Shown here in pieces: positions 14,888 through 42,121 of a stretch of DNA of 48,718 nucleotides. The number at the start of each line of letters is the position of its first letter. Position 1 is the stretch's first letter. A model generated the notes under the pieces. The model was not told the origin of the DNA, did not search any database, and saw only the letters and a program-made list of their open reading frames with translations. Both the position numbers and the translations under genes were made by a program. Source of the DNA: Nitrosomonas communis (lineage in GTDB: Bacteria > Pseudomonadota > Gammaproteobacteria > Burkholderiales > Nitrosomonadaceae). The stretch covers positions 1-48,718 of the forward strand of contig NZ_JAGFJM010000077.1 of assembly GCF_024102715.1 (NCBI RefSeq), read 5' to 3'.

Positions 14888-16495
14888 ATGAATGAATTTT
14901 TTTTTCAGATTATTTTTCGGCTTGTCAATAGGTTCCCTTGGATTAGCAGGATTGCCTCACGCATAACTTGGCTGCGTCGGTTTATCAGTGACAATTTTAT
15001 CAATTGGCAGGCTTATGCTACGAACCCTCGCCCCAGGCCGTTTTCCATGGCTGCACCCTATACAACATGGCAATCATTGACAGATAGAACATTTACCGGA
15101 CGGCATCTGCCAGAAGCAGAAGGGGAACAGATTCTTCCGAGTCTGGAGAGAGTCGTTAATCTATGGAAAAGAAAAGAAAATAAAGAAATCCCATCGGTTG
15201 ATACCAGCATACTGTTTTCTTTCTTTGCCCAATGGTTTACGGATAGTTTCCTGAGGACAGATTTTCGCGATCGCCGGAAAAATACCTCAAACCACGAAAT
15301 CGATCTTTGCCAGATCTATGGCTTGCGTGAAGAAATCACCCATTTGTTGCGGCTGAAAAAAGATGGAAAGCTGAAGTACCAAGTCATCGATGGAGAGATT
15401 TTTCCTCCTTATCTTTTTAACGTGGAAGAAACGACCATAGGCAAATGGGTATTCGCTGATAAGGAATTTGAGAATCTGCATCCCCGCTTTGTTCTGGAAT
15501 TTGTTTTTAACAATGTTCCGGAAGAGCGGTTAAAACGTATGTTTGCCACCGGACTGGAGCATGGCAATTCGTCGATTGGTTATACCATCATGAATACCAT
15601 CATGCTGCGCGAACACAATCGGATTTGTGACTTGCTCAAGGAATCCCATCCAAATTGGGATGATGAACGATTGTTTCAGACAACTAGAAACATCATGATT
15701 GTGCTGCTGATCAAAGTCGTGTTACGGGATTACGTGTCGCATTTCACACAGTTTGATTTTACCCTTGATCCCACGCCGGGGATGGCGGAAAGGCAGCGCT
15801 GGTATCGCACTAACTGGATTTCGCTGGAATTTAATCTGCTGTACCGATGGCACCCAATGGTACCGGAATACTACCTGGTCGGTAATAAGCCATACAAGCT
15901 TGACGAATTCCGCAACAATACATCGTTGGTGGTTGAATATGGAGTTGGGCCGCTGATAACGGCTGCCTCAAGGCAAAAAGCTGGCCGTGTCGGTCTTTAC
16001 AACACCCATCGTTTCTTTTTCGATCCGCTGCCTATTGGTGAGGATAATCGCAGTGTCATGGAGCGCACGGTCGAGATGGGGCGTCAGGCCCGGCTGCGTT
16101 CATTCAATGACTATCGCGAAGCATTCAGCATGCCGCGCTTGAGAAATTTTGAAGAATTGACAGAAGATGCCGAACTGCAGCGAGAACTGAAGGAACTTTA
16201 TAATGACCGGATCGATGATCTAGAGTGGCTGGTCGGCATCTTTGCTGAAGATCATGATGAAGGTTTTAGCCTTGGCCGTCTGATGGTACGTATGGTAGGT
16301 TACGATGCGTTTACCCATGCCTTGACCAATCCATTGGTATCGACCTATGTGCACAATGAAAAAACATTTTCGAAAATGGGGCAATCGATCATCGAAGAAA
16401 CAAACTCGCTTGCGGATATTGTTAAACGTAACGTAAAGGACAGCGACACGGTTGTTGCAAGCTTCAGAACATCCGCTGTGGCACCAGGCAGCTAA
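14888..16495 (+). CDS. Cyclooxygenase-like fatty acid dioxygenase (heme)
   Basis: A 535-residue member of the heme peroxidase-cyclooxygenase family, close enough to animal prostaglandin H synthase to align by eye: LRLKKDGKLKYQVIDGE, REHNRICDLL, LEFNLLYRWHPMVPE, FNDYREAFSMPR. By ovine COX-1 numbering it keeps the radical Tyr385 (Tyr319), proximal His388 (His322), Gln203 (Gln115), carboxylate-binding Arg120 (Arg72, in FTGRHLP) and Tyr355 (Tyr351). Distal His207 is replaced by Asp119 (FAQWFTDSF), and Ser530 corresponds to Ala474. Dioxygenation of a fatty acid is therefore plausible while peroxidase activity should be weak. The EGF domain is absent; the first 45 residues form amphipathic helices that may sit on the membrane, like the COX membrane-binding domain. 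A very strong ribosome site (AAGGGGGGTG, 14873-14882) precedes the ATG. It is first of three same-strand oxygenase genes. Confidence 0.9.
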   Translation: MNEFFFQIIFRLVNRFPWISRIASRITWLRRFISDNFINWQAYATNPRPRPFSMAAPYTTWQSLTDRTFTGRHLPEAEGEQILPSLERVVNLWKRKENKEIPSVDTSILFSFFAQWFTDSFLRTDFRDRRKNTSNHEIDLCQIYGLREEITHLLRLKKDGKLKYQVIDGEIFPPYLFNVEETTIGKWVFADKEFENLHPRFVLEFVFNNVPEERLKRMFATGLEHGNSSIGYTIMNTIMLREHNRICDLLKESHPNWDDERLFQTTRNIMIVLLIKVVLRDYVSHFTQFDFTLDPTPGMAERQRWYRTNWISLEFNLLYRWHPMVPEYYLVGNKPYKLDEFRNNTSLVVEYGVGPLITAASRQKAGRVGLYNTHRFFFDPLPIGEDNRSVMERTVEMGRQARLRSFNDYREAFSMPRLRNFEELTEDAELQRELKELYNDRIDDLEWLVGIFAEDHDEGFSLGRLMVRMVGYDAFTHALTNPLVSTYVHNEKTFSKMGQSIIEETNSLADIVKRNVKDSDTVVASFRTSAVAPGS

Positions 16496-16565
16496 GGGTT
16501 ATTTAACTTAAATGTGGAAGTAATAGCGAAGCCGGACGAATTTTATCTTTTGTAAGGAGCGCCAT

Positions 16566-18233
16566 ATGATGAATAAGCTACCACAATATGAAGACAATAA
16601 ACGCAAAGCAGAAAATCGGAAAAATTATCTGCTGCAGAAGCAAGCTCAATATCAATATGCCTATGAGTATGCCAATACGATTGCTGTCGTGCGTAAATTA
16701 CCTTGCCGGGAAATACCGGGACTTGGATATTGGCTGCGTGGCGGGCTAAATTTGTTACGGTTGATTCCAAGCTTGCCAAGCCTGGCGGTTACTTATTTGC
16801 GCTACTTACTCGGAAGACCATTAGAAAATTATCGAGACTATATCTTTTATCCGTTCAGTCCACCAAACCCCGACCTGGTTAACAATTTCCAACAAGATCT
16901 GATATTTGGTATGCAGCGTGTCATAGGGGTCAATCCTGTCGTATTGCGTGCCGTAACCCCTCAGCATCCTCTCCCAGAGAAACTGCCAGAATCTGAAATT
17001 CAGCGCATTTTTGCAGAACACATTGAGGAAATTGACTACGCAGCTGCCATTGAGCAAAAGCGTATGTACGTTCTGAATTACGCGGTCTTGGATATATTGC
17101 AGAAAAACCATGGGCATATTGATGGCGGACGCAAACAATATATTACGACCCCGATCGTCGTGTTATTGATGCAATCAGATGGCATGTTGCGACCGATCGC
17201 CATACAGTTATATCAGAACCCTGGACCAGATAATCCAATCTATACTGCAAAGGACGGTAATCTTTGGTTGGTAGCAAAAATGTTTGCCCAAGTCGCGGAC
17301 GGCAACCACCACATCCTGTATACCCATGCGACGCGTATTCATTACGTCATGGAAGCCATTATTATGGCCTCACGCAGGCAGCTTTATAAGTCCCACCCGC
17401 TTTCTGTTCTCTTAAATCCACATCTTCAGCATACACTCAATGTGAATCATCAGCACACCTTTCTGAGAGATCGAAAAGGGCGCCCTGGCCGGTTCGGCGA
17501 GTTATTTGCTGGAGACTATGATGCGACCACTCAGTGCATGGCCAATGGCATGACGAGCTTTAACTTTAAAGCGTCTGCTTTTCCTAGCGATATTGCCAAC
17601 CGGGAAGTCGATAACCCTGATCTTTTTTATCCCTATCGCGATGATGGCATGTTGCTATGGAATGCCATTCAAGGTTTTCTCCGAGAATATGTCGATGTCT
17701 ATTACCAGTCTGATGCAGATGTTACTGAAGACTACGAAATCCAGGCATGGGCCAATGACATCAGTGCCCAGGATCGCGGCAGAATCCCCGGGTTTCCTGC
17801 CAAATTTGAATCTAAACAAGAACTGGCTGAGACGCTTGGCCATATTGTTTTTCTATGCACGGCTTTTCATTCGAGCATTCATTTCAACCAATACAAATAT
17901 CCGGGGTTTGTTCCCAATATGCCGCATGCGGCTTATGCGCCACCCCCAACGGGAAAACGTACTGAAATGGATGAGGCTGGACTATTGAAGTTTCAACCTG
18001 CATTCCGGGCGGCTTATTCACAAACCTGGACGTATTTCCAGACAAATTTTACTGTTAATCGCATTGGTCAGTACCCATTACGGCTATTCGATCCGGCTGC
18101 GCGTGACGTCATCAAACGATTCAGTGACCGGCTAAAAGAGATAGAAAGGGAAATTGATCAAAGAAATCACAGTCGTTCTGTTGCTTATGATCGCATGAAT
18201 CCAAGGTTCATCCCCAATGGGGTAACTGTTTAA
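16566..18233 (+). CDS. Lipoxygenase
   Basis: A 555-residue lipoxygenase lacking the N-terminal PLAT/C2 domain of eukaryotic forms, comparable in size to short cyanobacterial ones. Lipoxygenases insert O2 into polyunsaturated fatty acids at a 1,4-pentadiene. The iron ligands are visible: His249 and His254 (HILYTH), His435 and His439 (HSSIHFNQY), and the C-terminal carboxylate of Val555, where Ile is usual. Other marks are LWLVAKMFAQVADGNHH, the block SHPLSVLLNPHLQHTLNVN (276-294), and MPHAAYAPPP. The fourth ligand being His rather than Asn resembles mammalian 15-type enzymes. There is no signal peptide. It follows the cyclooxygenase-like gene by 70 bases with GTAAGGAG before the ATG, so both are probably on one mRNA. 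Which carbon is oxygenated cannot be read from the sequence. Confidence 0.93.
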   Translation: MMNKLPQYEDNKRKAENRKNYLLQKQAQYQYAYEYANTIAVVRKLPCREIPGLGYWLRGGLNLLRLIPSLPSLAVTYLRYLLGRPLENYRDYIFYPFSPPNPDLVNNFQQDLIFGMQRVIGVNPVVLRAVTPQHPLPEKLPESEIQRIFAEHIEEIDYAAAIEQKRMYVLNYAVLDILQKNHGHIDGGRKQYITTPIVVLLMQSDGMLRPIAIQLYQNPGPDNPIYTAKDGNLWLVAKMFAQVADGNHHILYTHATRIHYVMEAIIMASRRQLYKSHPLSVLLNPHLQHTLNVNHQHTFLRDRKGRPGRFGELFAGDYDATTQCMANGMTSFNFKASAFPSDIANREVDNPDLFYPYRDDGMLLWNAIQGFLREYVDVYYQSDADVTEDYEIQAWANDISAQDRGRIPGFPAKFESKQELAETLGHIVFLCTAFHSSIHFNQYKYPGFVPNMPHAAYAPPPTGKRTEMDEAGLLKFQPAFRAAYSQTWTYFQTNFTVNRIGQYPLRLFDPAARDVIKRFSDRLKEIEREIDQRNHSRSVAYDRMNPRFIPNGVTV

Positions 18234-18286
18234 CAGGGCACGCATACCTATATCCAACTATAGGTCGCTGTGTCAAAGTAGATCGT

Positions 18287-21200
18287 ATGGTAAAAACAAT
18301 AGTTAAACGAAGCTTGAGGTATTGCTTTCGATCAAGCCCGGATGAGAATTTAAGAAGGGGTTTAAATAAGGCGAATTATTTAACCGACCCATACCTTGGC
18401 TTTAAGTTTGTAGCTCGATCTACTGATTTTATTCAGTGTTATTTGGTTTCCCTCTATTCCAGGTGCCGTCGTTTATTGACGCATCTGGCAATGGCAGGAT
18501 TGCTTCTGCTCAGTGGCTGTAATACCTGGGAGTCTGAACTCTCCTGTCTGGAAGTATTCATGCAGGGGGATATTCAGCGCGTTGCTCAAACCAGAGAGCA
18601 GCGGTTCCTCGGCAAGGTGCCTGAAAAGCGGGCGCATTGTCTCGGCGGAGATCATGCCGTCACGCTCAACCAGAGCCCCTGGCTGGACTGGCCAAATTTC
18701 TGGGCTACAGGGGATAGCTCATCACTATCACCACCTACTTTGCTAAATAGCACATTTTTCGGTCCCAATGCGCGTGGCATCAGCGGCGCGCTCTATGAAT
18801 TGGAGTTACAACGGATCGAACTTATCAAATTCAACCTTTTCGACAATAGTGGCACTTACCAGGCGTATATCACAGGCCGTGATAGCAAGGCGGGTCCCGT
18901 GCTGCAAACCTGGCCAGAAATGCTGTTGCCTCCGACCCATCCCAATTATCAGGATGTAAGGAGTGATCAAAAACAGGTCTGCAGGGGCGAGTTAATTCGT
19001 TTCCGCACCGTTACTGGCATCTGCAACGATATCTACAACCCATTGATGGGTTCGACGCATCAGCTCTTTGCGCGCAATGTTCAGTTTGAGACGACCTTTC
19101 CTGATCTCGGTTTCCATGAAATGACTAGAAATCGTCATGGAGACCGGTTAGGACTGCTGAAGCCAGATCCACAGGTCGTTAGCCGGAAATTGTTCACGCG
19201 TATGCAGTCTCACCCTGACAAATGCCAAAGCGGTTATGGCTTGCCTGGTAGTCCTGAAGAAGCCGAGTGCGATTACAAAAAGGCCCCGGCCTTTAATGTG
19301 CTGGCAGCTTTCTGGATTCAATTCATGACCCATGATTGGTTTTCTCATATGGAGGAAGACCCTCATCAGCCAGAGTGGATGACTGTTGGCTGCACGGGCC
19401 AACTGGTTGGCAATAGCGAACACTCCTTGACAGAAGAGGAGATCAAGCAACTGGGTTGCCGACCGGATGACAGGATCAATGTTTCACCAGTTGCTGACGA
19501 CACGCCGCCCGAATCATTTGTACATGGCAGCCAGTCCTATCTTGTACGCGCACCGAAAACAACACGCAATCACGTGACAGCCTGGTGGGATGCCTCGCAA
19601 CTGTATGGCTATGATGAGCGCTCTAGTCAGCGCGTGAAGCGAGATCCTGGAGATCCGGCCAAATTACTGTTGATACCGGTGAGAGAGGGTGGAGGTGAGG
19701 GCGATAAGACTGGATATTTGCCGGTCTTCGACGCTGGCGATCCGATCAAGCCGGAATGGTCCGGTCAGGAAGCTACTGCCTTTCCCGACAACTGGTCTAT
19801 CGGGTTGAGCTTCTTTCACAATATCTTTGCCAGAGAGCACAATGCTTTTGTTGATGAATTCCGCAAACAGGCAGCAAAAATTCCCGATGCCGACAGCGGC
19901 CTGAGAAACCCAGCCAGACCTGAGGTCGTTATCCGTTACCAAGATGTCACACCGGACGAGTTATTCAATGTTGCTCGGCTGGTTGTTTCTGCTGAGATTG
20001 CCAAAATCCACACTATCGAATGGACCACACAACTGCTGTACAACGAGCCATTGTATCGGGGGATGAACGCCAACTGGCATGGTCTTTTTCATGAACATAC
20101 AGCGGTATCTGAGGCACTGAGAGAAATCATCCGCCAACTCGATGATTCGGATGCTGCCAACAACAGCCTCTATGCAGCCTTCGCGGGCGGAGCGGGCATT
20201 TTTGGGTTAGGCAACCACCGCTATGAAGGGAAGTCATTCTATTCTTTAGTCGAGCGGGACAGGGAGGATATCTGGACACTCGCCAGCAACGACGACATCA
20301 ACGGCGGAATCAACCATTTTGGCTCACCCTTTAATTTTCCAGAAGAGTTTGTCACCGTATACCGGCTGCATCCTTTGCTGCCGGATCTGATCGAATACCG
20401 AGAATGGAACAAGGATCCGAATGTCATCCAGCAAAAAGTACCCGTTATCGACACCTTCCGCGGAAAAGCAACCGAGGCGATGCGACAGAAAGGTCTGGCG
20501 AGCTGGGCGCTTAGCATGGGCCGTCAACGAGCGGGCGAGCTGACGCTCCAGAATCATCCACAATTTCTGCAAAATCTGAAAATGCCGCAGTTGCAATCAT
20601 CCACCCAGCAGATCGATATCGCTGCACTCGATCTCATTCGTGATCGGGAGCGGGGCATTCCACGCTATAACGAGTTCCGCCGGCAGTATGGGTTGAAGCA
20701 ATTGACCGGTTTCGATGATTTCATCGATCCGCGTTTGCCCCAGGACTCGCCCGTTCGGCGCGAGCAGGAGCAGCTCGTGAAGATGTTACGTGAGGTATAC
20801 GGGCAGCACCGCTGTGATGAATCCAAACAGATTACAAATGCGCAACTGAATAACGATCAATCACCCATTAACGATTGTCTGGGGCATCCAAATGGCAGCC
20901 TCATTGACAATATCGAAGATGTCGATACGGTCGTCGGCTGGCTGGCGGAATTCAAACGACCGCATGGTTTTGCTATTTCAGAAACCCAGTTCGTCGTGTT
21001 TATTCTCAATGCATCGCGCAGGCTCTTTAGCGACCGCTTTCTCACCTCGAGTTTTCGCCCTGAATTCTATAGCACCTTTGGGGTAACGTGGGTGATGCAC
21101 AACGGGCCGGGTCCGGAAAAGATGGAGCAGGGGATGTCCAATGGTCACCAACAGCCGGTCTCTCCGCTGAAGCGTGTTCTATTGAGAACGTTACCGGAAT

Positions 21201-21325
21201 TAGCAGACGAACTTCAGGGAGTGATCAATGTATTCGATCCTTGGGCGCGAGACCGGGGAGAATATTACAGCACCGAATGGGAACCTCGGGGTGGTGCAGA
21301 GGGGGATAGTGCGTTCGCTAAGTAA
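18287..21325 (+). CDS. Alpha-dioxygenase-like heme protein with long N-terminal extension
   Basis: A protein of 1,012 residues; plant alpha-dioxygenases have about 640. From about residue 330 it follows them closely: AAFWIQFMTHDWFSHME with distal His349, TAWWDASQLYG, FAREHNAFVDEF, VTVYRLHPLLPD with radical Tyr692 and proximal His695, DRERGIPRYNEFRR and HGFAISETQFVVF. Alpha-dioxygenases add O2 at carbon 2 of fatty acids, which then shorten to aldehydes. Unlike the cyclooxygenase-like gene upstream, both histidines are kept. The first 330 residues are not recognised, apart from a hydrophobic stretch ending LLLLSGC (Cys78), which looks like a lipobox. The true start may lie closer to it, since the ATG at 18287 has a poor ribosome site. 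It ends 28 bases from the convergent GMC gene. Confidence 0.85.
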   Translation: MVKTIVKRSLRYCFRSSPDENLRRGLNKANYLTDPYLGFKFVARSTDFIQCYLVSLYSRCRRLLTHLAMAGLLLLSGCNTWESELSCLEVFMQGDIQRVAQTREQRFLGKVPEKRAHCLGGDHAVTLNQSPWLDWPNFWATGDSSSLSPPTLLNSTFFGPNARGISGALYELELQRIELIKFNLFDNSGTYQAYITGRDSKAGPVLQTWPEMLLPPTHPNYQDVRSDQKQVCRGELIRFRTVTGICNDIYNPLMGSTHQLFARNVQFETTFPDLGFHEMTRNRHGDRLGLLKPDPQVVSRKLFTRMQSHPDKCQSGYGLPGSPEEAECDYKKAPAFNVLAAFWIQFMTHDWFSHMEEDPHQPEWMTVGCTGQLVGNSEHSLTEEEIKQLGCRPDDRINVSPVADDTPPESFVHGSQSYLVRAPKTTRNHVTAWWDASQLYGYDERSSQRVKRDPGDPAKLLLIPVREGGGEGDKTGYLPVFDAGDPIKPEWSGQEATAFPDNWSIGLSFFHNIFAREHNAFVDEFRKQAAKIPDADSGLRNPARPEVVIRYQDVTPDELFNVARLVVSAEIAKIHTIEWTTQLLYNEPLYRGMNANWHGLFHEHTAVSEALREIIRQLDDSDAANNSLYAAFAGGAGIFGLGNHRYEGKSFYSLVERDREDIWTLASNDDINGGINHFGSPFNFPEEFVTVYRLHPLLPDLIEYREWNKDPNVIQQKVPVIDTFRGKATEAMRQKGLASWALSMGRQRAGELTLQNHPQFLQNLKMPQLQSSTQQIDIAALDLIRDRERGIPRYNEFRRQYGLKQLTGFDDFIDPRLPQDSPVRREQEQLVKMLREVYGQHRCDESKQITNAQLNNDQSPINDCLGHPNGSLIDNIEDVDTVVGWLAEFKRPHGFAISETQFVVFILNASRRLFSDRFLTSSFRPEFYSTFGVTWVMHNGPGPEKMEQGMSNGHQQPVSPLKRVLLRTLPELADELQGVINVFDPWARDRGEYYSTEWEPRGGAEGDSAFAK

Positions 21326-21352
21326 TCCCCATCCATGTGCACATAAAAAGAG

Positions 21353-23290: not shown

Positions 23291-23515
23291 AAGTTATCTC
23301 CAACAAAATGATTTTAAAAATCTTCTATAGATTTCCAAGGGATAGCATCACTGTGTCGATAAACACCAAAACTCTCTCCTTATTTAAAGAGAAGCTTTAT
23401 TTGAAAACTTTGCAGACTTTAATTCTTCATCGCTAAAGAACTGATTGAAAATCGAGAGATTGAAGAATGCAGTAAGTACCCCGCCACCAGTAACGAGGTA
23501 CTTTATTCATGAAAA

Positions 23516-26257: not shown

Positions 26258-26646
26258 TTACAATAATCTCTTTCTTTTTTCAGTAAGTATATTGCTATAT
26301 TTAGAATTATTGCTATATAAATTTAAATTAAATAATCAATATTCATTCTGCAAGAACTTCTTTCTTTATCGATTATTAAATTCTTGCACATTAAACAAAC
26401 TTGGAATAAAGTCATCTAGAATAAATTTTTACGAGTGAGCAAGAATGGCTCCTTGTTATATATAAATAATCAACAATTAAACAGGGGAGAGTGAATTTAT
26501 AAATTATTAGTTTGAAAAATTTTTAATTGATTCCAGGCGTTTATCATTGTGTATGTGCTGGAGAGTTTCTTGGATTATTACAAATCAAGTGTTGTCAGGC
26601 ATTTTGTTTACTTATTTTTGATATAACTCTATGAGGAGTAACTAAA
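26258..26646. promoter_or_regulatory. Divergent promoter region, A+T-rich
   Basis: About 390 bases between the cytochrome c gene (minus) and the five-gene plus-strand run. It is very rich in A and T, with several TATAAT-like strings (for example TATATAAATAATC near 26460) and no supportable gene. It should hold promoters for both directions; I could not place a -35/-10 pair with confidence. Confidence 0.4.
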
Positions 26647-27102
26647 ATGAACAATACGGTAAGGACTTGGTTGAGTAAATCACGCGAGGAATTAGATGAA
26701 ATTTATCGCAATGCCAATCCAGGGAACATTCCAATTGGCGACACACAGGGCACAGCAATCCTAGCAGGATCAATCTTCTCAAAACTCGTGGCAGCCTTTG
26801 CCCGTCTCTTTGCTTGGCAAGGTAAAGTATTTGATTTATTTTGCCCAGGCGGTCAGGCAGGTGTTCTTGTCAACAAGATTACACCGTTTGGCCTGACATT
26901 TATTATTGCCAAGGTATATCGTGACAAAAGCTGGTTGGATGGAAAAGATACCATTGTCATTGATTATTCTAAGACTTCCTTCGTTGCCAAAGTGATCCGC
27001 GATGAAATTCGTGAGATCGAACCTGGTGTTTATCTCGGGAAGGTATGGTGGGGTAAAACGCGGGTTCTGGATTTTGCCCTGACACGAAGTAATGCTAAAT
27101 AA
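26647..27102 (+). CDS. Conserved-looking protein of unknown function, first gene of operon
   Basis: A 151-residue protein that I cannot assign to a named family. It has no signal peptide and no long membrane helix. The middle is hydrophobic (AGSIFSKLVAAFARLFAW). The C-terminal half has alternating strand-like segments, LVNKITPFGLTFIIAKVYR, SWLDGKDTIVIDYS and EPGVYLGKVWWGKTRVLDFA, which look like a small beta-barrel or lipocalin-like domain. A strong ribosome site (GAGGAG) precedes the ATG. It leads a tight run with the next unknown gene, the DyP peroxidase and the catalase-related gene, so a lipid-binding or heme-enzyme helper role is possible but unproved. Confidence 0.7.
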   Translation: MNNTVRTWLSKSREELDEIYRNANPGNIPIGDTQGTAILAGSIFSKLVAAFARLFAWQGKVFDLFCPGGQAGVLVNKITPFGLTFIIAKVYRDKSWLDGKDTIVIDYSKTSFVAKVIRDEIREIEPGVYLGKVWWGKTRVLDFALTRSNAK

Positions 27103-27137
27103 GAAATCATGTAAATGTTTACTTGAGATAGAAAACT

Positions 27138-28442
27138 ATGACACCTCAATCTCCCTTCATGATTGCTGCGACTGTGCGTGTTGGACAGATGAAAAACCTC
27201 CGCACCTTGTTGGCTTCGATGAACAAAGTACCCGGTCATGCTGATCCCGATAATAGCCTGATTCCATTCAGTCGATTTGATCGCTTGCATTTTGCGCGCT
27301 TTGTGATCATAGAAGCCAATACGACCCACGAAATTAAGGAATTTGGCGTAAAACCAAGACTGTGGCGGCCTACTCTTGCCTTTCTAGGCGATATTGATGG
27401 GGATATGCATACTTTCCTGGCAGAACTGGTGGAACAAGCGGAACCAGGTCTAAAAAAAATCTTTTCCCATTGTGATGGTTTTTCTGAGGAAGATCAAAAT
27501 CTGCTGGAATGGATACAAGCACACACTATCAATCCCAGAGCGAATTATGTTAACTGGATTGGCCGAACTGTTAAACAAATACATGAAGAAGCTGCACTCC
27601 ATCGAAGCCTGTCTACCTATTTACAGAAAATTGTTGATGATGTTGGCCGGGAAAATGTCCGTACCTTACGACAAAAGCTTTTGTCACATGTCGAAATGGA
27701 AAAATATAAAGGTAGACTTACATTATCACCACCCGAACCGACACCCACAGACTGGAAAATCCGCAATCTGCTGCATATGATTGGGGTGCCATTAATTCTA
27801 CTTCTGCTATCCCCACTGCTGTTAGCTATCGCCCCTTTCTTTGCCCTACGTCTGAGAATGCTGGAGCGTTCCGACCCCGAACTCTTTATCCGGCCTAGCT
27901 ATGAACATATCAATGAACTTTCAAAACAGGAAGACTGGGATGTCAGTAATCAGTATAGTGTGTTTGGGGATGTGAAGCCGGGTTTGTTCCGTCTGCTGAC
28001 TTTCAAATTTATACTTCTGCTGACCGACTGGTTTGCGAGACATGTATACAATCGGGGTTTTCTCGCTCGAATAAAAACCATCCATTTTGCGCGCTGGGTG
28101 TTTATGGACAATAACCATAGAGTCTTTTTTGCCAGTAATTATGATGGTAGCCATGAGAGCTATATGGATGATTTCATTAATAAGGTCGGCTGGGGTCTGA
28201 ATCTTACTTTCAGTAACGCGGTAGGCTACCCTACCACGAGATGGATCATTAAAGAAGGTGCGCAGCGGGAACTTGCATTCAAATATACGCAAAGGCGACA
28301 TCAAATACCTACAGAGGTCTGGTATAAGGCTTATCCAGGGCTAACAGCCGTTGATTTGGCACGTAACAGCCGCATCCGGCAGGGCGTGGAAATTCGTCAA
28401 GCCAACGATGCGGAAATCCGTGAATGGCTCAGCCTGATCTGA
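27138..28442 (+). CDS. Unknown membrane-associated protein with duplicated domain
   Basis: A 434-residue protein without a family I recognise. Two segments resemble one another: RLHFARFVIIEANTT (about 49-63), and TIHFARWVFMDNNHR (about 313-327) followed by VFFASNYDGSHESYMDDFIN. Each is followed by a helix-strand pattern that suggests two ferredoxin-like units, the fold also used twice in DyP peroxidases. Between them is a hydrophobic stretch (LILLLLSPLLLAIAPFFALR, about 214-233) that could span or enter the membrane. The stop lies 15 bases before the DyP start. Conserved cysteines or a heme motif are not apparent. It could be a dedicated partner of DyP or of the lipid enzymes. Confidence 0.7.
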   Translation: MTPQSPFMIAATVRVGQMKNLRTLLASMNKVPGHADPDNSLIPFSRFDRLHFARFVIIEANTTHEIKEFGVKPRLWRPTLAFLGDIDGDMHTFLAELVEQAEPGLKKIFSHCDGFSEEDQNLLEWIQAHTINPRANYVNWIGRTVKQIHEEAALHRSLSTYLQKIVDDVGRENVRTLRQKLLSHVEMEKYKGRLTLSPPEPTPTDWKIRNLLHMIGVPLILLLLSPLLLAIAPFFALRLRMLERSDPELFIRPSYEHINELSKQEDWDVSNQYSVFGDVKPGLFRLLTFKFILLLTDWFARHVYNRGFLARIKTIHFARWVFMDNNHRVFFASNYDGSHESYMDDFINKVGWGLNLTFSNAVGYPTTRWIIKEGAQRELAFKYTQRRHQIPTEVWYKAYPGLTAVDLARNSRIRQGVEIRQANDAEIREWLSLI

Positions 28443-28457
28443 ACAGGGAGTATGGAA

Positions 28458-29987
28458 ATGAAAAAATCAAACGATTTTGAATTTGATGATCTGCAGGGAT
28501 TGCTGCGCTTTGGATATGGAAAATTAACCGATACTTGTTTCATGCTGCTGAATATTGCAAATGTTGACGCAGCTAAACAATGGTTGAATACAGCACCCAT
28601 CAGCAATGCCGTTACGATGGATTCACCGCCTGATACGGCGCTGCAGATTGCTTTTTCTGTACACGGCTTGCGTATACTGGGAGTAAGTGAATCGATCATT
28701 GGTGATTTCTCTGATGAATTCATTCATGGTATGACTAGAAATGAAAATAGTTCTCGACGACTAGGTGATATTGGTCGTAATGCGCCGGAACGCTGGGAGT
28801 GGGGTAATGATTCGGTCACAATGCCGCATATCTTGTTGCTGCTTTATGCCAAAAAAGGAGATCTCGAAGCTTGGCGAAAAACTGTTGAAGATGACCGTTT
28901 TTCTCAGGCATTTCAGCTGCTGAGACAATTACCTACTTCGGATATAGGGCGGGTTGAACCTTTCGGCTTCGATGATGGTATCAGCCAGCCCACGATTGAC
29001 TGGACTTATCGACAAAGTACAGACCCGCATGAACGTGATCGTTACTCTAATTTATTGGCTGTGGGAGAGATGGTGCTTGGCTACCCAAATGAATATGGGC
29101 AGTACACTGCGCGACCACTCATTAATCCAAAAAAAGACCAACTTGCAACCGGTTTGCCAGATGCCGAAGATGATCCCGCGCTAAAGGACTTTGCTCGTAA
29201 TGGAACATACTTAGTGCTGCGAGAGTTAGGTCAGGATGTTCCCGGTTTTTGGCAGTTTCTCGACAAGGCATCAAGTTCCAAGTCGAAAAAACGTGAACAT
29301 CTTGCCGCAGCAATGGTGGGTAGAGAACGGAATGGCACGCCATTGATTGCAGAACACATTCCAGGAATTTCACGCAAAGATCATGGTAACCATTTTACTT
29401 ATGACTTAGATGCAAAAGGAAACCATTGTCCGATGAGTGCCCATATTCGCAGGGCTAACCCTCGCACAGGTGACTTACCAGGGGGTGTAACGGGTTTGGG
29501 TATAGTCGGTTTTATCAATCGCTTGATTAAAATCCTGGGATTTGGACAAAAGCCGGAGGAAGATCTTATTGCTTCCTCCCGTTTCCATCGTTTGTTACGG
29601 CGTGGTCGCAGCTACGGTCCCTTCCTTGCACCGGAAGACGCTATTAAACCGGATGCCCCTGTTGCCGAACGTGGCCTCCAGTTTATCTGTCTGGTAGCCA
29701 ACATATCGCGGCAGTTTGAATTTGTCCAGAATGCCTGGATTGTGAATGGTAAATTTAATGGACTGCAAGAGGAACCGGACCCGTTGCTGGGGAATCGTGA
29801 ACCGTTACTGAGTGGGGGAAGTACCGATCATTTTAATCGTCCCGATCCCTCCGGGCCGATGCAAAAAACCTGCCATTTGCCGCAGTTTGTTACTGTTCAT
29901 GGCGGCGGATATTTTTTTATGCCTGGATTGCGTGCATTAAAGTACATTTCAGCCTTACCTGCTAACGGAGGTAATAGTTCATCATGA
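28458..29987 (+). CDS. DyP-type heme peroxidase
   Basis: A peroxidase of the dye-decolorizing type. It is 509 residues from this start; numbering below is from the ATG two codons earlier (28452). The family motif GXXDG is seen as GFDDG (172-176, Asp175 catalytic), followed by ISQP. The proximal heme His is His331 in SAHIRRANPRTG, and the distal Arg is in RRGRSYGP. The protein is longer than the roughly 300-residue cytosolic DyPs and similar to the larger subfamily. It has no Tat signal. I prefer the ATG at 28458, because AGGGAG at 28445-28450 is then seven bases away. It overlaps the catalase-related gene (ATGA). DyPs use H2O2 or organic peroxides; lipid hydroperoxides from the neighbouring oxygenases are plausible co-substrates. 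Confidence 0.93.
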   Translation: MKKSNDFEFDDLQGLLRFGYGKLTDTCFMLLNIANVDAAKQWLNTAPISNAVTMDSPPDTALQIAFSVHGLRILGVSESIIGDFSDEFIHGMTRNENSSRRLGDIGRNAPERWEWGNDSVTMPHILLLLYAKKGDLEAWRKTVEDDRFSQAFQLLRQLPTSDIGRVEPFGFDDGISQPTIDWTYRQSTDPHERDRYSNLLAVGEMVLGYPNEYGQYTARPLINPKKDQLATGLPDAEDDPALKDFARNGTYLVLRELGQDVPGFWQFLDKASSSKSKKREHLAAAMVGRERNGTPLIAEHIPGISRKDHGNHFTYDLDAKGNHCPMSAHIRRANPRTGDLPGGVTGLGIVGFINRLIKILGFGQKPEEDLIASSRFHRLLRRGRSYGPFLAPEDAIKPDAPVAERGLQFICLVANISRQFEFVQNAWIVNGKFNGLQEEPDPLLGNREPLLSGGSTDHFNRPDPSGPMQKTCHLPQFVTVHGGGYFFMPGLRALKYISALPANGGNSSS

Positions 29988-31195
29988 GGACAATCAAGGA
30001 CCGAATACTTAAAGCTATTCACAATTTTCTGATTCTGCTGCTGCGTATTGAACGCCGGTTAGAACCTTGGTTTCGGCCGCAGTGGGACTATCTTTTTCGC
30101 GAACCTGGCTCAAGATTTATCCAGTTTTTGATTAATCGGCGGCGCAAGAACAAGGATCTTAATCTTAAACTGGCTGAGGAAAGATTTGATCCTGATGAAG
30201 AAGAAAGTCTCAATAAAATTATCGATCTCATGATGGATCAGATGCGTGGGCGCTTCAAGCCAGGCGGCTATGAGCGAGGTGGTAATACCAAAACACATGG
30301 TATTGTGCGTGCCACGGTAACCATACGCGATGATCTGCCAGAGCATTGCCGCAAAGGTATTTTTGCCAATCCGTGCAGCTATCCAGCCTATGTTCGCTAT
30401 TCCGGACCTGGTCCGAATGTGCCTGCTGATATTAACGATGTAGGCTTTCTGAGTATGGCGGTGAAGCTCATGGGCGTTCCAGGCGAAAAACTCATGAGTG
30501 AAGAAAAATTTACTCAAGACTTTATCGCAACCAGCGGGGGCGCAACGTTTGTTACACCCAATACGCGGGAAAATGCCAAATTGCAATACTGGAGCCTGGT
30601 GGATATGACGCTTTATTATTTTCTTAATCCCAAGGACTCCCATTTGCTTGATTTCTTCATGCAAAGTCTGTGGACTGCTACTCAGTATAATCCATTGGCG
30701 CAGCGCTATTGGAGTTGCACGCCCTATCTGTTAGGTGAGGGGCAGGCTATGATGTATTCATTTGTGCCAAAAACAAAAGATGTGGAAAGGCATATTCCTG
30801 GCCTGCCTTTTGGTACGCCTCCGTTTAATTACCTGCGGGAGAATATGATCAAAACGCTGAATGAGAAAGACATTGAATTTGATCTTATGATTCAAATACA
30901 AACCGATCCTCATTTAATGCCGATTGAAGATAGCTCAGTACGCTGGCCGGAAAAGCTTTCCCCGTTCATACCTGCTGCCACAATTCATATTCCAAAACAA
31001 AAATTTGATTCGGATGCGCAATTTGAGTTTGGTAAACGATTGAAAATGAATCCTTGGCATTGCCTTCCTGAACATCGACCATTAGGCAATATAAATCGGG
31101 CACGCTTTAGAATGTATTTTGAGTTATCCAAATTCCGCCAGGAGATGAATGAGACCACACATCTTGAACCAACCGGGGAGGAGAAATTCGATTAG
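29984..31195 (+). CDS. Catalase-related hemoprotein, allene-oxide-synthase-like
   Basis: A 403-residue heme protein of the reduced catalase type, shorter than true catalases (about 480 or more). The distal His is His105 in NTKTHGIVRATVTI, and YVRYSGPGPN matches the catalase VRFS segment. The proximal heme ligand should be Tyr378, with Arg374 in RFRMY, matching the catalase R-x-x-x-Y. Before the distal His stands Thr104. In coral allene oxide synthase the same Thr-His pair suppresses catalase action, and its change to Val has been reported to restore it. The protein is therefore more likely to act on fatty acid hydroperoxides than on H2O2. NPWHCLPEHRPLGNINRAR (356-374) marks this subfamily. 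It has no signal peptide and its start overlaps the DyP stop. Confidence 0.85.
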   Translation: MRTIKDRILKAIHNFLILLLRIERRLEPWFRPQWDYLFREPGSRFIQFLINRRRKNKDLNLKLAEERFDPDEEESLNKIIDLMMDQMRGRFKPGGYERGGNTKTHGIVRATVTIRDDLPEHCRKGIFANPCSYPAYVRYSGPGPNVPADINDVGFLSMAVKLMGVPGEKLMSEEKFTQDFIATSGGATFVTPNTRENAKLQYWSLVDMTLYYFLNPKDSHLLDFFMQSLWTATQYNPLAQRYWSCTPYLLGEGQAMMYSFVPKTKDVERHIPGLPFGTPPFNYLRENMIKTLNEKDIEFDLMIQIQTDPHLMPIEDSSVRWPEKLSPFIPAATIHIPKQKFDSDAQFEFGKRLKMNPWHCLPEHRPLGNINRARFRMYFELSKFRQEMNETTHLEPTGEEKFD

Positions 31196-31395
31196 CATTT
31201 TTTATGGCACTAATGCCTAATCAGGCTCTAATCTGACTCCTTCTTTATTGCAAGAAATAAGCAAGCAATTCGCATAAAGCTTATGGAATGATAGGATTAA
31301 TTCGGATTATGTCAATCTAATCCAAGCTATTCCGAACAATTTTTTAGGGATCTAGAAAATATATGCTTTAGTGAAATTCTCACGAAAGGGAGGAA

Positions 31396-33201
31396 ATGAT
31401 GAAAGCTATAGAAAGTAATCAACGCTTGGGGCTAGCTTTATCCGGGGGAGGGTATAGAGCATCGTTCTATCATATCGGCGTTCTTGCGCGCATGGCAGAA
31501 TTGAGTATGTTGAAGCATGTCGAGTCGATTTCAACAGTATCGGGTGGTTCAATAGTAGGGGCAGCTTATTATCTATTACTGAAAGACCTGCTGGAATCCA
31601 AAACCGATCATGAGATTGCTGATTCAGATTATGTTGAGTTGGTACAAGAACTGGAAAAGCATTTCTTAAATGCTGTGCAAAAAAACTTGCGTATGCGAAC
31701 TTTTGCAAATCCTCTCAAGAATATGCGCATGAGCTTGCCCAATTATTCCCGCTCAGACGCCATAGGTGAGTTATATGAGTACCATATTTACCGGCCTTTA
31801 ATTAATGTGGGTAATCGCCGCATACGAATGAGTGATTTATTAATTCAACCGAAGGGGGTAGCGCAGCCTTTCCATCCATGGGATACCGTAAACGGTAATC
31901 CCAGGCGTAAACACAAAGTGCCTGTACTCATGATTAATGCCACCAGTCTGAATTCTGGTCACAGTTGGTATTTTACCGCCATGAGTATGGGTGAAGTTCC
32001 TCCACGAAATTGTACTTTCCGTGACATTGATAAAAGGGATCGCTATCGCCGTATGCGTTATGACGAGATTGATGAGGCCTCCACTGGGAGAAAGCCTTAC
32101 TTTCTATTAGGGAATGCGGTGGCTGCATCAGCGGGTGTGCCTGGCATATTTCCACCGATGGCTATCTCCAAATTGTACAAAAGTCGTCGCGTACAACTTG
32201 TCGATGGAGGTGCATATGACAATCAGGGGATTGCAAGCCTGCTCGATCCTGATTGCGTTTGTAGCGATTTTGTCGTCAGTGATGCTTCAGGCCAAATTGA
32301 GGCCACTAATAAGCCTCGAACCGATTTGTTATCGGTGCTTTCCACGAGTAGCTCAATTTTGATGAGGCGTGTGCGTGAGGAGTTAGTTAATAATCTAATA
32401 CAGACTCAGCCTAAGCACGTTGCTTATTTCCATTTGGCTCGTGGTTTATCTGCAAGAAAGATCGATTGGGCGCCCAGCGATAAAATAGAGATAGAGGCTG
32501 ATTCTTCAGTGTCCCAATTTGATGTTTCGGAGGAAGCGCAACGTACATTGTCAAAAATCCGGACAGATCTGGACTCTTTCACCGATGTGGAGGCGGGATG
32601 CCTGCAAGCGAGTGGTTATCAAATGTCAAAACCAGAGCTTTTAAAATTAAAATCGTATGTATCATCTGCGCATCTACAAGGAAGCTGGCAATTTAGTCAG
32701 TATCAACCGCTGCTAAAAGCAGGTGACCCTAAAACGCTCAATCAGCTGAAGCAAGGACGCTACAGGTTTTTCAAACCGCTCATGTACGCCATCAAGGGAG
32801 CTACAGGGTTTAAGCAGTCATTGGGTTTAATATTAGTAAGCGTACCTGTCATTCTGAGCCTTGCGCTTATTTTCCTTCTTGTTCATTCTCTGTTAGAGAG
32901 CATGTTAGATATCAATATTTGGAAGATCATGAGCGACCAAGAAAGCTTCCAGCAATTCATGTTTAAGGCAGCGCCCACGATTTATTTGTTTTTGGTATTG
33001 TTTATTCTATCGAAAGCTGCTGATGTACTGCTCAAAGGAACCGGTAAATGGATTAATATCTTCTATCAAATATTGAAGAGTCCAATGAGGCTCATTGCTG
33101 GTCTATTCACTCGTCTTATTTTGCCTTTGGTATTTGCTATACCGATAATTATCTATCTCTATACCATTGATAGATACTTTATTAAGACAATGGGAAAGTA
33201 A
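31396..33201 (+). CDS. Patatin-like phospholipase with C-terminal membrane anchor
   Basis: A 601-residue protein. The patatin domain is N-terminal: oxyanion loop GGGYRA (17-22), nucleophile Ser49 in STVSGGSIVG, and catalytic Asp in LVDGGAYDNQG. After about residue 470 come three hydrophobic segments (LGLILVSVPVILSLALIFLL; IYLFLVLFILSKAADVL; LILPLVFAIPIIIYLYTI). There is no signal peptide, so the catalytic part should face the cytoplasm from the inner membrane. Such enzymes free fatty acids from phospholipids, which would feed the lipoxygenase and cyclooxygenase-like enzymes. A strong ribosome site (AAGGGAGG) precedes ATGATG. A 200-base gap follows the catalase-related gene, so it may have its own promoter. 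It is the second patatin in the window; the other is an envelope lipoprotein. Confidence 0.9.
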   Translation: MMKAIESNQRLGLALSGGGYRASFYHIGVLARMAELSMLKHVESISTVSGGSIVGAAYYLLLKDLLESKTDHEIADSDYVELVQELEKHFLNAVQKNLRMRTFANPLKNMRMSLPNYSRSDAIGELYEYHIYRPLINVGNRRIRMSDLLIQPKGVAQPFHPWDTVNGNPRRKHKVPVLMINATSLNSGHSWYFTAMSMGEVPPRNCTFRDIDKRDRYRRMRYDEIDEASTGRKPYFLLGNAVAASAGVPGIFPPMAISKLYKSRRVQLVDGGAYDNQGIASLLDPDCVCSDFVVSDASGQIEATNKPRTDLLSVLSTSSSILMRRVREELVNNLIQTQPKHVAYFHLARGLSARKIDWAPSDKIEIEADSSVSQFDVSEEAQRTLSKIRTDLDSFTDVEAGCLQASGYQMSKPELLKLKSYVSSAHLQGSWQFSQYQPLLKAGDPKTLNQLKQGRYRFFKPLMYAIKGATGFKQSLGLILVSVPVILSLALIFLLVHSLLESMLDINIWKIMSDQESFQQFMFKAAPTIYLFLVLFILSKAADVLLKGTGKWINIFYQILKSPMRLIAGLFTRLILPLVFAIPIIIYLYTIDRYFIKTMGK

Positions 33202-34272: not shown

Positions 34273-35346
34273 TTAATGCAGTTGATGAGGAAACAGATCA
34301 AGGCGGCGTGGCTTAATAAAAACCTGGTCACCTCTTCTCAATTGCAACTCACGGAATCGTTCCTTGCTGATCTCGACTTGAACGAGGTTCTTGTTTTCAT
34401 TATCTTCATGCGTCAGTTCTAGTCTTACGACCGGACCAACGGAGAGAATATGAACCACATGCGCTGCCAATGCTGATTCGCCATTAATGGTGCGATCAAC
34501 CTCGATATCGTGCGGCCGCACATAGGCGACTGCAGCCAGATCCTCAGCCTCGGCATGCTCAGGCGCATCGATTTCAATATCGCCAATCCAGGCACGGCCT
34601 TGGTGTATCCGGCCATGGAACAGATTGACATGTCCCAGAAATTCATACACAAACGGGTTAGCCGGCCGCTCATAGACTTCATCGGGTGTACCAATTTGCT
34701 CGATGCGTCCCTCATTCATGATCACAACCCGATCGGAAACTTCCAGTGCTTCTTCCTGATCATGAGTGACAAAAACACTGGTGATATGCATGTCATCATG
34801 CAGCCTGCGCAACCAGGTGCGCAATTCCTTGCGCACTTTGGCATCAAGCGCGCCGAATGGCTCATCCAGTAGCAATACTTTGGGTTCAACTGCCAAAGCG
34901 CGTGCCAAAGCAATGCGCTGACGCTGGCCGCCAGAAAGCTGGTGAGGATAGCGGTCTGCCAGCCAGTCAAGTTGCACCAGTTTCAGCAAATGAGAGACGC
35001 GTTCACGGATTTCCTGTTCTTTCAGACGGCTCTGTTTAGGACGAACACGGAGCCCAAACGCGACATTCTCAAAGATCGTCATATTACGGAACAGCGCATA
35101 ATGCTGAAAGACAAAACCTACCTGCCGATCACGCACATGCTGACTGGTTGCATCTTCGTCATTAAACAATACTTGACCAGTATCGGCTGTTTCCAGTCCT
35201 GCGATGACGCGCAGCAAGGTGGTCTTGCCAGAGCCCGAAGGTCCCAGCAAGGCAAGTAATTCGCCTGCCTCGATTTTCAGGTTAACATCGCGTAATGCAG
35301 CAAACGAGCCAAATTGCTTGGAAAGATGACGTATTTCAATGCTCAT
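34273..35346 (-). CDS. cysA: Sulfate/thiosulfate ABC transporter ATPase CysA
   Basis: A 357-residue ATPase that energises sulfate and thiosulfate uptake. Walker A is GPSGSGKTT (35-43), the Q-loop is in [11 protein letters not shown], the signature is [15 protein letters not shown], Walker B is [12 protein letters not shown], and the switch His is in [10 protein letters not shown]. The C-terminal third is the regulatory TOBE-like domain typical of CysA ([19 protein letters not shown]). Its start overlaps the cysW end by 11 bases. Length is normal. Confidence 0.97.
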
Positions 35347-36232: not shown

Positions 36233-36242
36233 TGTGCGTCTC

Positions 36243-37076: not shown

Positions 37077-37263
37077 GTGTTAACTCCTGATCAATCAGAG
37101 ATTGTAAATAAACCTATTGCGCATCTTAATTGTTGTGTGGGGTGGTGCTCGTTCATCGTTTATCCATTTAATATGTTTCGCTTTGCGCGCCATCTGCTTT
37201 GCGTTTGGGGCGCTTGCTATGATTTTTTGCAACTCTCAGTTGACTTCACCAATACGAAGCTCG

Positions 37264-38262: not shown

Positions 38263-38304
38263 CTTTGTTCCTTTAATGGATAAGGTTTGGGTTATTTGAA
38301 CGCT

Positions 38305-42118: not shown

Positions 42119-42121
42119 GCG

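Follow-up and report, generated by a model that had tools for sequence, protein, structure and literature searches.

What do the oxygenase genes crowded into one stretch of a Nitrosomonas contig do together, and do they form a unit at all? The window, that is, the whole stretch of DNA analysed (48,718 nucleotides), contains an island at positions 14888–33201 whose two ends are both ORF ends; ten ORFs cover 17310 of its 18314 bases. An earlier note had placed eight gene families here (cyclooxygenase-like protein, lipoxygenase, alpha-dioxygenase, GMC oxidoreductase, two-haem c protein, DyP peroxidase, catalase-related protein and patatin), and the matches to Pfam, to solved structures and to motifs bear this inventory out. 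Two island genes were missing from that list, P0006 (H151) and P0007 (H434). The features are as follows.

14888..16495, + strand: P0001, COX-like, most plausibly a haem dioxygenase of the 10S-dioxygenase type (535 aa; An_peroxidase, PTGS2 as top PDB match, active-site residues)
16566..18233, + strand: P0002, lipoxygenase without a recognised PLAT domain (555 aa; Lipoxygenase is the sole Pfam match; 5med)
18287..21325, + strand: P0003, alpha-dioxygenase-like haem protein, extended at the N-terminus and bearing the lipobox LSGC; accessory (4kvj and 4hhr matches)
21353..23290, - strand: P0004, GMC oxidoreductase (Pfam GMC_oxred N and C domains)
23516..26257, - strand: P0005, di-haem c-type lipoprotein, related to the di-haem cytochrome c peroxidase/RoxA group but expanded (two CxxCH; lipobox LAGC)
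26647..27102, + strand: P0006 = H151, small conserved protein (no Pfam or NCBIfam match; adjoins H434 in relatives)
27138..28442, + strand: P0007 = H434, with a hydrophobic stretch by eye (no Pfam match at E 0.001)
28452..29987, + strand: P0008, DyP-like peroxidase (Dyp_perox_C barely above cut-off)
29984..31195, + strand: P0009, catalase-related haem protein (similar to a plasmid 'catalase family protein'; 4-base overlap with the end of the DyP gene)
31396..33201, + strand: P0010 (PAT1), patatin-like phospholipase with C-terminal hydrophobic segments; accessory (Patatin E 3.8e-18)
12608..14032, - strand: P0012 (PAT2), second patatin, a lipoprotein just outside the island, possibly in the set; accessory (Patatin E 5.2e-17; lipobox LFAC)

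Active-site residues of the oxygenases and haem proteins

P0001 matches An_peroxidase in Pfam (E 1.8e-43), and its nearest solved structure is prostaglandin synthase 2 (E 1.8e-69). The homology behind the label "cyclooxygenase-like" in the earlier note therefore stands, but the class does not, since the residues point to a 10S-dioxygenase type. The distal His of cyclooxygenase (COX) supports peroxidase activity; in the printed alignment, this position (His207) is occupied in P0001 by Asp119, and a 10S-dioxygenase-type Asp was present in all 26 aligned COX-like proteins, P0001 included. The equivalents of the radical Tyr385 and the proximal His388 are Y319 and H322, which were kept in 26 of 26 proteins and are common to P0001 and the prostaglandin G/H synthases COX-1 and COX-2. 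On the other hand, P0001 has Gln41 for Arg120, Phe for Tyr355 and Ala474 for Ser530 in the printed alignment. The COX numbering follows in part PMC13049297. Residues 117–121 of P0001 are FTDSF, as in the Nostoc-type 10S-dioxygenase, where F-T-D-S-F replaces F-T-H-Q-F (PMC13049297), and the residues matched to 10S-dioxygenase motifs are TDS, Y282, Y319, H322 and DAF. The same paper gives ARxIGxDAFxQA, with an Ala in the place of Ser530, as the terminal motif of the Nostoc-type bacterial 10S-dioxygenase; in the corresponding segment of P0001, VRMVGYDAFTHA, A, I and Q of the motif are replaced by V, V and H, the rest is identical, and Ala again stands in the place of Ser530. On its active-site residues (Asp for the distal His, Ala for Ser530) a prostaglandin synthase was rejected, and P0001 is better read as 10S-dioxygenase-type than as a cyclooxygenase.

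This assignment bears on the substrate, which the earlier note had found puzzling because lipoxygenases need polyunsaturated acids that most such bacteria do not make. Oleic and linoleic acid are both substrates of the Nostoc punctiforme 10S-dioxygenase, whose partner is a catalase-related lyase (Brash 2014, as given in PMC13049297), and therefore the puzzle is softened. Because P0001 appears to be 10S-dioxygenase-type, a monounsaturated acid could be its substrate, although the lipoxygenase would still need a diene or a hydroperoxide. A desaturase gene was found in 29 of 30 genomes searched, and carriers of the island could not be separated from non-carriers in this respect; thus, a home-made diene for the lipoxygenase is hypothetical.

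P0002 matches Lipoxygenase in Pfam (E 6.5e-58), and its nearest solved structure is the lipoxygenase 5med (E 7.7e-80). In lipoxygenases the metal is bound by three His residues, one further side chain and the carboxylate of the C-terminus. In all five aligned rows, H254, H259, H435 and H439 are invariant and a V is C-terminal (V555 in P0002); these five residues, at what we take to be the ligand positions, are the candidate metal ligands. P0002 thus carries the ligand set of a lipoxygenase, and dioxygenation of 1,4-dienes is predicted. An unusual residue at the "Coffa" position was dropped because it rests on a gapped alignment.

P0003 also matches An_peroxidase (E 1.8e-66), with fatty acid alpha-oxidase 4kvj as its nearest solved structure (E 1.9e-54) and 4hhr as a further match. 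Aligned with 4kvj, H349, H575, T580, Y692, H695 and R917 were invariant in seven of seven rows; we take H349 to be the distal His, Y692 the radical Tyr, H695 the proximal His, and H575, T580 and R917 to belong to the active site. The ORF of 1012 aa, against 621 and 652 for the solved alpha-dioxygenase chains, has an N-terminal extension, insertions and a lipobox, and so falls outside the size of a compact enzyme (about 620–650 residues). The true start is probably downstream of the first ATG.

P0005 exceeds the Cytochrom_C cut-off in Pfam (25.2 bits against 21.3) and has CxxCH at 296 and 541, a spacing of 245 that is also that of PA2077 (PMC4496055). The rubber oxygenase RoxA and the Pseudomonas oleate diol synthase (10S-dioxygenase plus 7,10-diol synthase, FadCcp; PMC4496055) are c-type di-haem members of the cytochrome c peroxidase group that oxygenate unsaturated lipids, and P0005 appears to be related to that group. 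It differs from FadCcp and RoxA in its length of 913 aa, its large insertions, a match to NF040606 below cut-off (E 3.6e-11; 42.9 bits against 150) and a Leu for the MauG-type His. The last difference is seen against another di-haem protein encoded in this genome, L135 (522 aa), with which P0005 aligns across both haem sites: the His of the motif PYFHNGSVP is absent from P0005 (APFLLNN, versus APFFHNN in L135), and L687 of P0005 is invariant in 10 aligned rows. Membership of RoxA proper was set aside because RoxA was not among the PDB matches listed in sequence and profile searches and profile-profile comparison gave a weak match to a RoxA-like group (26 columns at 25% probability). Through L135, P0005 appears to be a distant relative of the RoxA/FadCcp oxygenases, and this kinship makes it a possible further oxygenase. 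Its predicted structure is poor (pLDDT 31.5).

In the standard Pfam search, P0006, P0007 and P0009 matched no family, and the predicted structure of P0007 is of low confidence (pLDDT 51). P0008 reaches 20.4 bits against Dyp_perox_C (cut-off 20), stays below the cut-off of DyP_N and scores 63.9 bits against TIGR01413 (cut-off 100.5); its translation contains GFDDG, a GxxDG sequence that we take to be the DyP-type peroxidase motif. P0009 matched no Pfam family, Catalase PF00199 included, even at E 0.1, but shares 34.6% identity, over 81% of its length, with a plasmid gene that carries the annotation "catalase family protein". Catalase-related hydroperoxide lyases and allene oxide synthases have a distal Thr-His, a proximal Tyr and an Arg seven residues on (PMC5617202). 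Compared by eye with these residues, P0009 has T104-H105, Y378 and R385 at cAOS-like positions, and apparently Thr102 where cAOS has an Arg that binds the haem, at the second position ahead of the distal Thr.

Co-occurrence and gene order in relatives

Presence and absence were counted over 125 Nitrosomonadaceae genomes, which are genomes and not independent events. Raw matches at E 0.001 were 32 for the COX-like protein, 18 for the lipoxygenase, 31 for H434, 22 for the alpha-dioxygenase and 25 for the di-haem protein; strong matches were set by bit score, with a threshold chosen after a wide gap had been seen. The COX-like protein and the lipoxygenase (>1000 bits) occur in the same 17 of the 125 genomes, the window's own included. 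H434 (>900 bits) occurs in those 17 and in G017, which is without the COX–lipoxygenase pair and has a disrupted alpha-dioxygenase. The di-haem protein (>1200 bits) is found in 16 of the 17, and also without the pair in G515 and, split, in G050. The alpha-dioxygenase is present in nine of the 17 and in none of the second genus's eight carriers. Neither the similarities nor the co-occurrence can credibly be put down to chance.

COX lies directly upstream of the lipoxygenase in 14 of 14 family loci. Repeated co-occurrence of at least four members of the set, which the earlier note had named as support for a unit, was found in 11 of these 14; in the other three (L068, L070 and L071), most of the remaining genes lie on a different contig of that genome. 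Neighbourhood tallies left out TIR and WD40 matches below 200 bits, and one of them also histidine kinase and response regulator matches. The proposal that the set works as a unit is accordingly supported for a core of COX-like protein, lipoxygenase, H434 and di-haem protein, which co-occur, but not for the alpha-dioxygenase and the patatins, which are accessory. Likewise, because the alpha-dioxygenase lies outside this core, the three dioxygenase types noted side by side are limited to the genomes of nine of the 17 carriers.

The patatins are patchy and were dropped as fixed members. Among the relative stretches read, PAT1 has relatives beside the island only in G017 (85%) and G071 (39%); those of PAT2 lie beside the island in G017 (90%) and adjoin the lipoxygenase in N. 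marina (39–40%). No patatin was found near the island in the stretches read of G053, G066, G023 and G054, or at the Nitrosospira and Nitrosovibrio loci examined. Hence a lipid-releasing step cannot be counted as constant. The adjoining LysR gene is grouped with sulfate-transport-type genes, so it was not assigned to the island, and no OdsR-like regulator is claimed.

H151 and H434 belong to a conserved block, beside the DyP-like and catalase-related genes. Outside the family, one genome (G382) has the run catalase-related gene, DyP, H434, H151, second catalase and alpha-dioxygenase; a relative of the C-terminal half of H434 sits between a P450 and a DyP in locus L107, and G202 has a P450/H434-like/DyP fusion. 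A RoxA-like di-haem gene directly precedes the lipoxygenase in two of three outlier loci; in the third it stands two genes ahead, separated from the lipoxygenase by a lipase gene. Among eight annotated plasmid records of COX-like relatives, two adjoin a catalase-family gene and two, on rhizobial plasmids, a P450 gene; in the other four (two Acaryochloris, two Ruegeria) no annotated catalase or P450 adjoins the COX-like gene.

Proposed function and competing explanations

The island probably encodes an oxylipin-type system, in which fatty acids would be dioxygenated and the hydroperoxides processed. From homology, active-site residues, gene order and co-occurrence, we infer its reactions, substrate and purpose. 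Patatins, where present, would free acyl chains. P0001 would convert mono- and di-unsaturated acids to allylic (10-)hydroperoxides, P0002 would oxygenate dienes or isomerise hydroperoxides, and the lipoprotein P0003 would add 2-hydroperoxidation in the Nitrosomonas carriers. H151, H434, DyP and the catalase-related protein may act together as a module that converts hydroperoxides, as a lyase, isomerase or reductase, and the GMC protein and di-haem cytochrome may serve product oxidation or extra oxygenation. The purpose could be a signal or an antimicrobial product made from own or imported acyl chains. A more specific version is tentative: the cascade of ammonia oxidisers might start from their own monounsaturated acyl chains, with 10S-dioxygenase and lipoxygenase feeding a new membrane-linked H151–H434–DyP–catalase-related unit, a haem-enzyme assembly with parts P450-fused in other bacteria, and the products might be signals or weapons in nitrifying communities.

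Few bacterial oxylipin systems have been worked out, namely the Pseudomonas diol synthase and cyanobacterial dioxygenases (PMC6377657 and PMC13049297), and no paper describing this cluster by title or abstract was found among the matches listed, in a search with subscription papers mostly outside it. A close likeness is to Nostoc punctiforme, which likewise has a haem dioxygenase related to COX (about 540 aa, TDS, Ala in the place of Ser530) and, as its partner, a catalase-related protein, the 10S-hydroperoxide lyase; the island adds lipoxygenase, di-haem, GMC, DyP, H434 and H151 proteins, the Nostoc protein being compared by its published motifs. Coral catalase-related allene oxide synthase–lipoxygenase fusions (PMC5617202) and cyanobacterial catalase–lipoxygenase fusions (PMC11719350) also join a lipoxygenase to a catalase-related protein, whereas the island genes are separate and have a further haem dioxygenase and a DyP-like peroxidase beside them. 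In fungi, the linoleate diol synthases, which are fusions of a haem dioxygenase with a P450 (PMC13049297), couple a COX-related dioxygenase to a hydroperoxide-processing haem enzyme; the island is without a P450, for which its catalase-related and DyP-like proteins may substitute.

Defence against lipid peroxides is an unlikely alternative, in which the haem enzymes and peroxidase would clear membrane hydroperoxides arising from nitrifier chemistry, and the oxygenase homologues would be peroxidases or hydroperoxide isomerases and not oxylipin makers. The DyP-like, catalase-related and di-haem peroxidase relatives would suit such a role, as would patatins, where present, by releasing damaged acyl chains. 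However, P0001 keeps the radical Tyr and proximal His without the peroxidase-supporting distal His, the lipoxygenase and alpha-dioxygenase retain oxygenase residues, and the COX–lipoxygenase pair is confined to its 17 genomes, even though the family's named members are known as ammonia oxidisers. We regard as still more doubtful that envelope oxygenases degrade foreign lipids or hydrophobic polymers in RoxA-like fashion, either to gain carbon or as an attack on competitors or grazers. The distant kinship of P0005 to the RoxA group, the lipoboxes found by motif in P0003, P0005 and P0012, and a conceivable external source of polyunsaturated acids speak for it; the Leu of P0005 at the MauG-type His, the lack of a lipobox in the COX-like, lipoxygenase, DyP and catalase-related proteins (by motif search) and, among the window genes searched, the lack of any transporter recurring beside islands except sulfate-type genes at G017 and G066 speak against it. 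That unrelated redox genes share a mobile or hot-spot location without working together is very improbable: species differ in the order and orientation of the genes, and the alpha-dioxygenase and patatins come and go, but the core is retained even when divided over contigs (in three genomes, COX–lipoxygenase and the remaining genes, both kept), fusions of H434-like and DyP parts exist in other bacteria, and the protein distances of COX, lipoxygenase, H434 and the catalase-related protein correlate (r 0.88–0.95 in 11–12 genomes, a value that a shared species tree also raises).

If the oxylipin reading is true, COX- and lipoxygenase-type chemistry gains a prokaryotic operon context, the question arises of how oxygenated lipids serve a chemolithotrophic nitrifier, and the H434 and H151 families acquire a testable role. 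Named carriers of the island include N. europaea ATCC 25978, strains of N. marina and Nitrosospira multiformis, so direct testing is possible.

Layout and conservation of the island

The island occupies positions 14888-33201 of contig C122, the window, in a genome of 3.05 Mb with a completeness of 99.94%. It comprises ten open reading frames in three blocks:

Block 1, plus strand: cyclooxygenase-like gene (COX, P0001), lipoxygenase (LOX, P0002) and alpha-dioxygenase-like lipoprotein (DOX, P0003); intergenic gaps of 70 and 53 bases
Block 2, minus strand: di-haem c-type protein (CYTC, P0005) and GMC oxidoreductase (GMC, P0004)
Block 3, plus strand: H151 and H434 (conserved, family unassigned), DyP-like peroxidase, catalase-related haem protein (CAT, P0009) and patatin (PAT1); gaps of 35, 9, -4 and 200 bases

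Gene families were assigned using Pfam, NCBIfam and a PDB sequence search. Assignments are weak for DyP and the di-haem protein and weakest for the catalase-related protein P0009, which matched no Pfam family and is similar to plasmid genes annotated as "catalase family protein".

A profile search of genome contigs with the LOX alignment returned 17 loci, 14 of them from Nitrosomonadaceae (Nitrosomonas, Nitrosospira and Nitrosovibrio). In all 14, LOX is immediately preceded by the COX-like gene. Within the fetched stretch, at least four members of the set occur together in 11 of the 14, the kind of repeated co-occurrence that the earlier note named as support for a unit. In the other three loci (L068, L070 and L071, corresponding to genomes G066, G054 and G023), H151-H434-DyP-CAT, CYTC-GMC and DOX are on another contig.

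We then consider presence across 125 genomes of the family. With E 0.001 as the threshold, COX was counted in 32 of them, a number that takes in paralogues and distant haem peroxidases, LOX in 18 and H434 in 31. Above 1000 bits, COX was found in 17 genomes and LOX in the identical 17, the window's genome counted (hereafter, carriers). H434 above 900 bits was found in these carriers and in G017. All carriers but the fragmented, 80%-complete G543 have the di-haem protein above 1200 bits (16 of 17), as do G017 and G515, and G050 has a split 1135-bit match. Two identical 17-genome sets among 125 would arise in one draw with a chance of about 2.5e-21, a value that is no probability of function because the genomes are related. 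Protein distances of COX, LOX, H434 and CAT showed pairwise correlations of 0.88-0.95 over 11-12 genomes, and 0 of 2000 permutations reached as high a value for each of the six pairs; vertical descent alone would explain much of this correlation. G017 keeps the island apart from the COX-LOX pair, which it lacks, and its alpha-dioxygenase-like gene is split over several reading frames (L046:2912-5761, minus), as though the island were decaying there. Overall, the island is a real, conserved gene set of ammonia oxidisers, with lipid oxygenation as its predicted chemistry.

The proposal that these genes work as one set is supported for a core of COX-LOX, H434 and the di-haem protein, but not for DOX and the patatins, whose distribution is patchy. 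Seven of the 17 carriers have an intact DOX of the P0003 type, and the alpha-dioxygenase residues of DOX are kept in all seven aligned rows. G071 and G507 (N. marina type) have instead a different alpha-dioxygenase-like protein, in open frames of 790-796 aa. None of the eight carriers in g321, the second genus, has a DOX, which is thus a Nitrosomonas add-on. In the stretches read, G017 (85%) and G071 (39%) are the only genomes with a PAT1 relative beside the island, and PAT2, the patatin just outside the island, has relatives there in N. marina (39-40%) and G017 (90%); no patatin was found by the island in G053, G066, G023, G054 or the Nitrosospira and Nitrosovibrio loci. In N. marina Nm22 (L054:9853-13750), an aldehyde dehydrogenase gene directly precedes a TPR-carrying alpha-dioxygenase-like gene of 779 aa, with PAT2, LOX and COX adjoining, an arrangement that fits the conversion of a 2-hydroperoxide to an aldehyde. 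In N. mobilis, a gene with Sel1 repeats and a caspase domain (Peptidase_C14; L067:3943-5781) lies between LOX and DOX, and an autotransporter-domain gene lies further along.

The head enzyme P0001

In alignment with PTGS2, P0001 keeps the radical tyrosine (Y319), the proximal histidine (H322) and the equivalent of Tyr348 (Y282), but the distal His207 is replaced by Asp119, Arg120 by Gln41, Tyr355 by Phe and Ser530 by Ala474. The replaced equivalents of the distal His, Arg120 and Ser530 argue against reading the cyclooxygenase-like protein of the earlier note as a true cyclooxygenase. According to PMC13049297, the 10S-dioxygenase of Nostoc punctiforme (UniProt B2J5P4; 542 residues) carries F143-T-D-S-F, Ala487 at the Ser530 position and the terminal motif ARxI483GxDA487FxQ490A, oxidises oleic and linoleic acid, and has a catalase-related lyase as its partner. 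P0001 resembles this enzyme in carrying FTDSF and the terminal stretch VRMVGYDAFTHA. The elements T-D-[S/G], both Tyr, His and D-A are kept in 26 of 26 aligned COX-like proteins, namely 15 main-type Nitrosomonadaceae proteins (P0001 among them), two paralogues and nine plasmid genes. This alignment omits L069, L071 and L077 (genomes already represented), paralogue L103, plasmid matches H5, H7 and H8 (more Paracoccus yeei), eight weaker plasmid matches and unfetched family genomes. P0001 is a predicted 10S-dioxygenase-type head enzyme, rather than a true cyclooxygenase; bacterial cyclooxygenases are, according to PMC4420034, still putative sequences.

Judged from sequence, the island would be a variant of the oxylipin systems already described, headed by a putative 10S-dioxygenase-type enzyme and including two uncharacterised conserved proteins. 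A lipoxygenase was already known in N. europaea (PMC11941309, citing Vance 2004), and PMC6377657 suggests that oxylipin signalling could be more widespread in bacteria. Searches of open-access literature turned up no paper whose title and abstract describe this cluster.

Plasmid relatives of the COX-like gene with at least 80% query cover comprised 12 records, and neighbourhoods were opened for nine, one of these without annotation. Among the nine, the neighbour of the COX-like gene is of the catalase family in Methylobacterium currus and in Paracoccus yeei, whereas it is a P450 gene in Rhizobium etli and in Sinorhizobium medicae. In two Ruegeria records the COX-like gene stands beside a 355-aa gene of unassigned family (no Pfam family for the one searched), and in two Acaryochloris records neither catalase nor P450 is annotated by it.

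A second COX-like paralogue, 35-43% identical to P0001 and located outside the island (L104:9561-11144, L102:9982-11631 and L103:9621-11099, all minus), is present in nine g321 genomes and in G042, G068 and G526. Many Nitrosomonas genomes (G012, G067, G511, G070 and others) have open frames of about 1600-1750 aa that are weakly animal-haem-peroxidase-like. The COX-like gene of N. europaea ATCC 25978 has as its neighbour a tyrosinase gene carrying PPC domains (L048:10459-11976, minus), and tyrosinase relatives occur in the Nitrosospira island loci L073 and L075.

Lipoxygenase, di-haem protein and possible substrates

The LOX keeps its candidate metal ligands in the alignment, and its closest structure is 5med, with the PDB name arachidonate 15-lipoxygenase. 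Alpha-dioxygenases need no polyunsaturated acid, and the membrane fatty acids of Nitrosomonas probably include 16:1, 18:1 and 16:0. Since 10S-dioxygenase-type enzymes do not need one either, these membrane acids could serve both. Fatty acid desaturase genes were found in 29 of 30 chosen genomes, which included 12 of the 17 carriers, and their presence was alike in carriers and non-carriers; LOX would thus still need an imported or home-made diene, or act on hydroperoxides. The puzzle raised earlier over the source of polyunsaturated acids is thereby softened and would persist only for LOX. The window's genome has three desaturases: one is of the DesA family over the cut-off, one is weakly DesA-like, and the third matched no NCBIfam model.

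The di-haem protein P0005, which is without one motif His, can be aligned to another di-haem protein of its genome, 522 aa long (24% identity, E 2e-36); the alignment spans the two haem sites and GHYFGT at the C-terminus. Against NF040606, the model for RoxA/FadCcp-type proteins, the 522-aa protein scores 62.9 bits and P0005 42.9 bits, both short of the cut-off, 150. PMC4496055 groups two Pseudomonas enzymes, oleate 10S-DOX and diol synthase, with RoxA among di-haem proteins of this kind. The weakly DesA-like desaturase lies near the 522-aa protein gene, with one gene between (L135:879-5502, contig C57), and this pair is a possible second lipid-oxygenation locus.

Relatives beyond the family and flanking genes

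Class-wide samples show these genes to be rare: 4 of 370 genomes had a LOX family match over the cut-off and 5 of 369 an H434 match at E <=0.001, the window's genome counted in each. G382, of the same class and another family, carries a single run of CAT-DyP-H434-H151, one more catalase-like gene and a DOX of 55% identity, and G190 has H434-DyP-CAT together. In G202, one 1423-aa protein (L107:6880-11151, minus) combines parts similar to P450, to the C-terminal half of H434 and to DyP. Partial H434 matches occurred in 45 plasmid records; most of the best 20 lay in genes whose annotation is P450, DyP-type or hypothetical, and in two alphaproteobacterial plasmids that were opened the H434-like part lies inside long single CDSs with DyP-type and P450 annotation.

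Within the stretches fetched, none of the three LOX loci from outside the family contained a COX-like match. A RoxA-like di-haem gene directly precedes LOX in Thiotrichaceae and Ca. Albibeggiatoa, and in a Xenococcaceae cyanobacterium the order is RoxA-like di-haem gene, Lipase_3 gene, LOX. The two di-haem genes scanned (L083 and L080) exceed the NF040606 cut-off, and that of L081 is 62% identical to that of L083.

The flanks of the island in the window hold the following genes:

131-2410: TIR-NACHT-TPR protein, reminiscent of defence genes
34273-40038, adjoining the island: LysR gene, then sulfate-type ABC transporter genes, solute-binding protein and alginate-export-type porin
40748-45643: TIR protein, then large WD40-repeat protein, resembling defence genes

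LysR and transporter genes likewise lie beside the island in G017 and G066.
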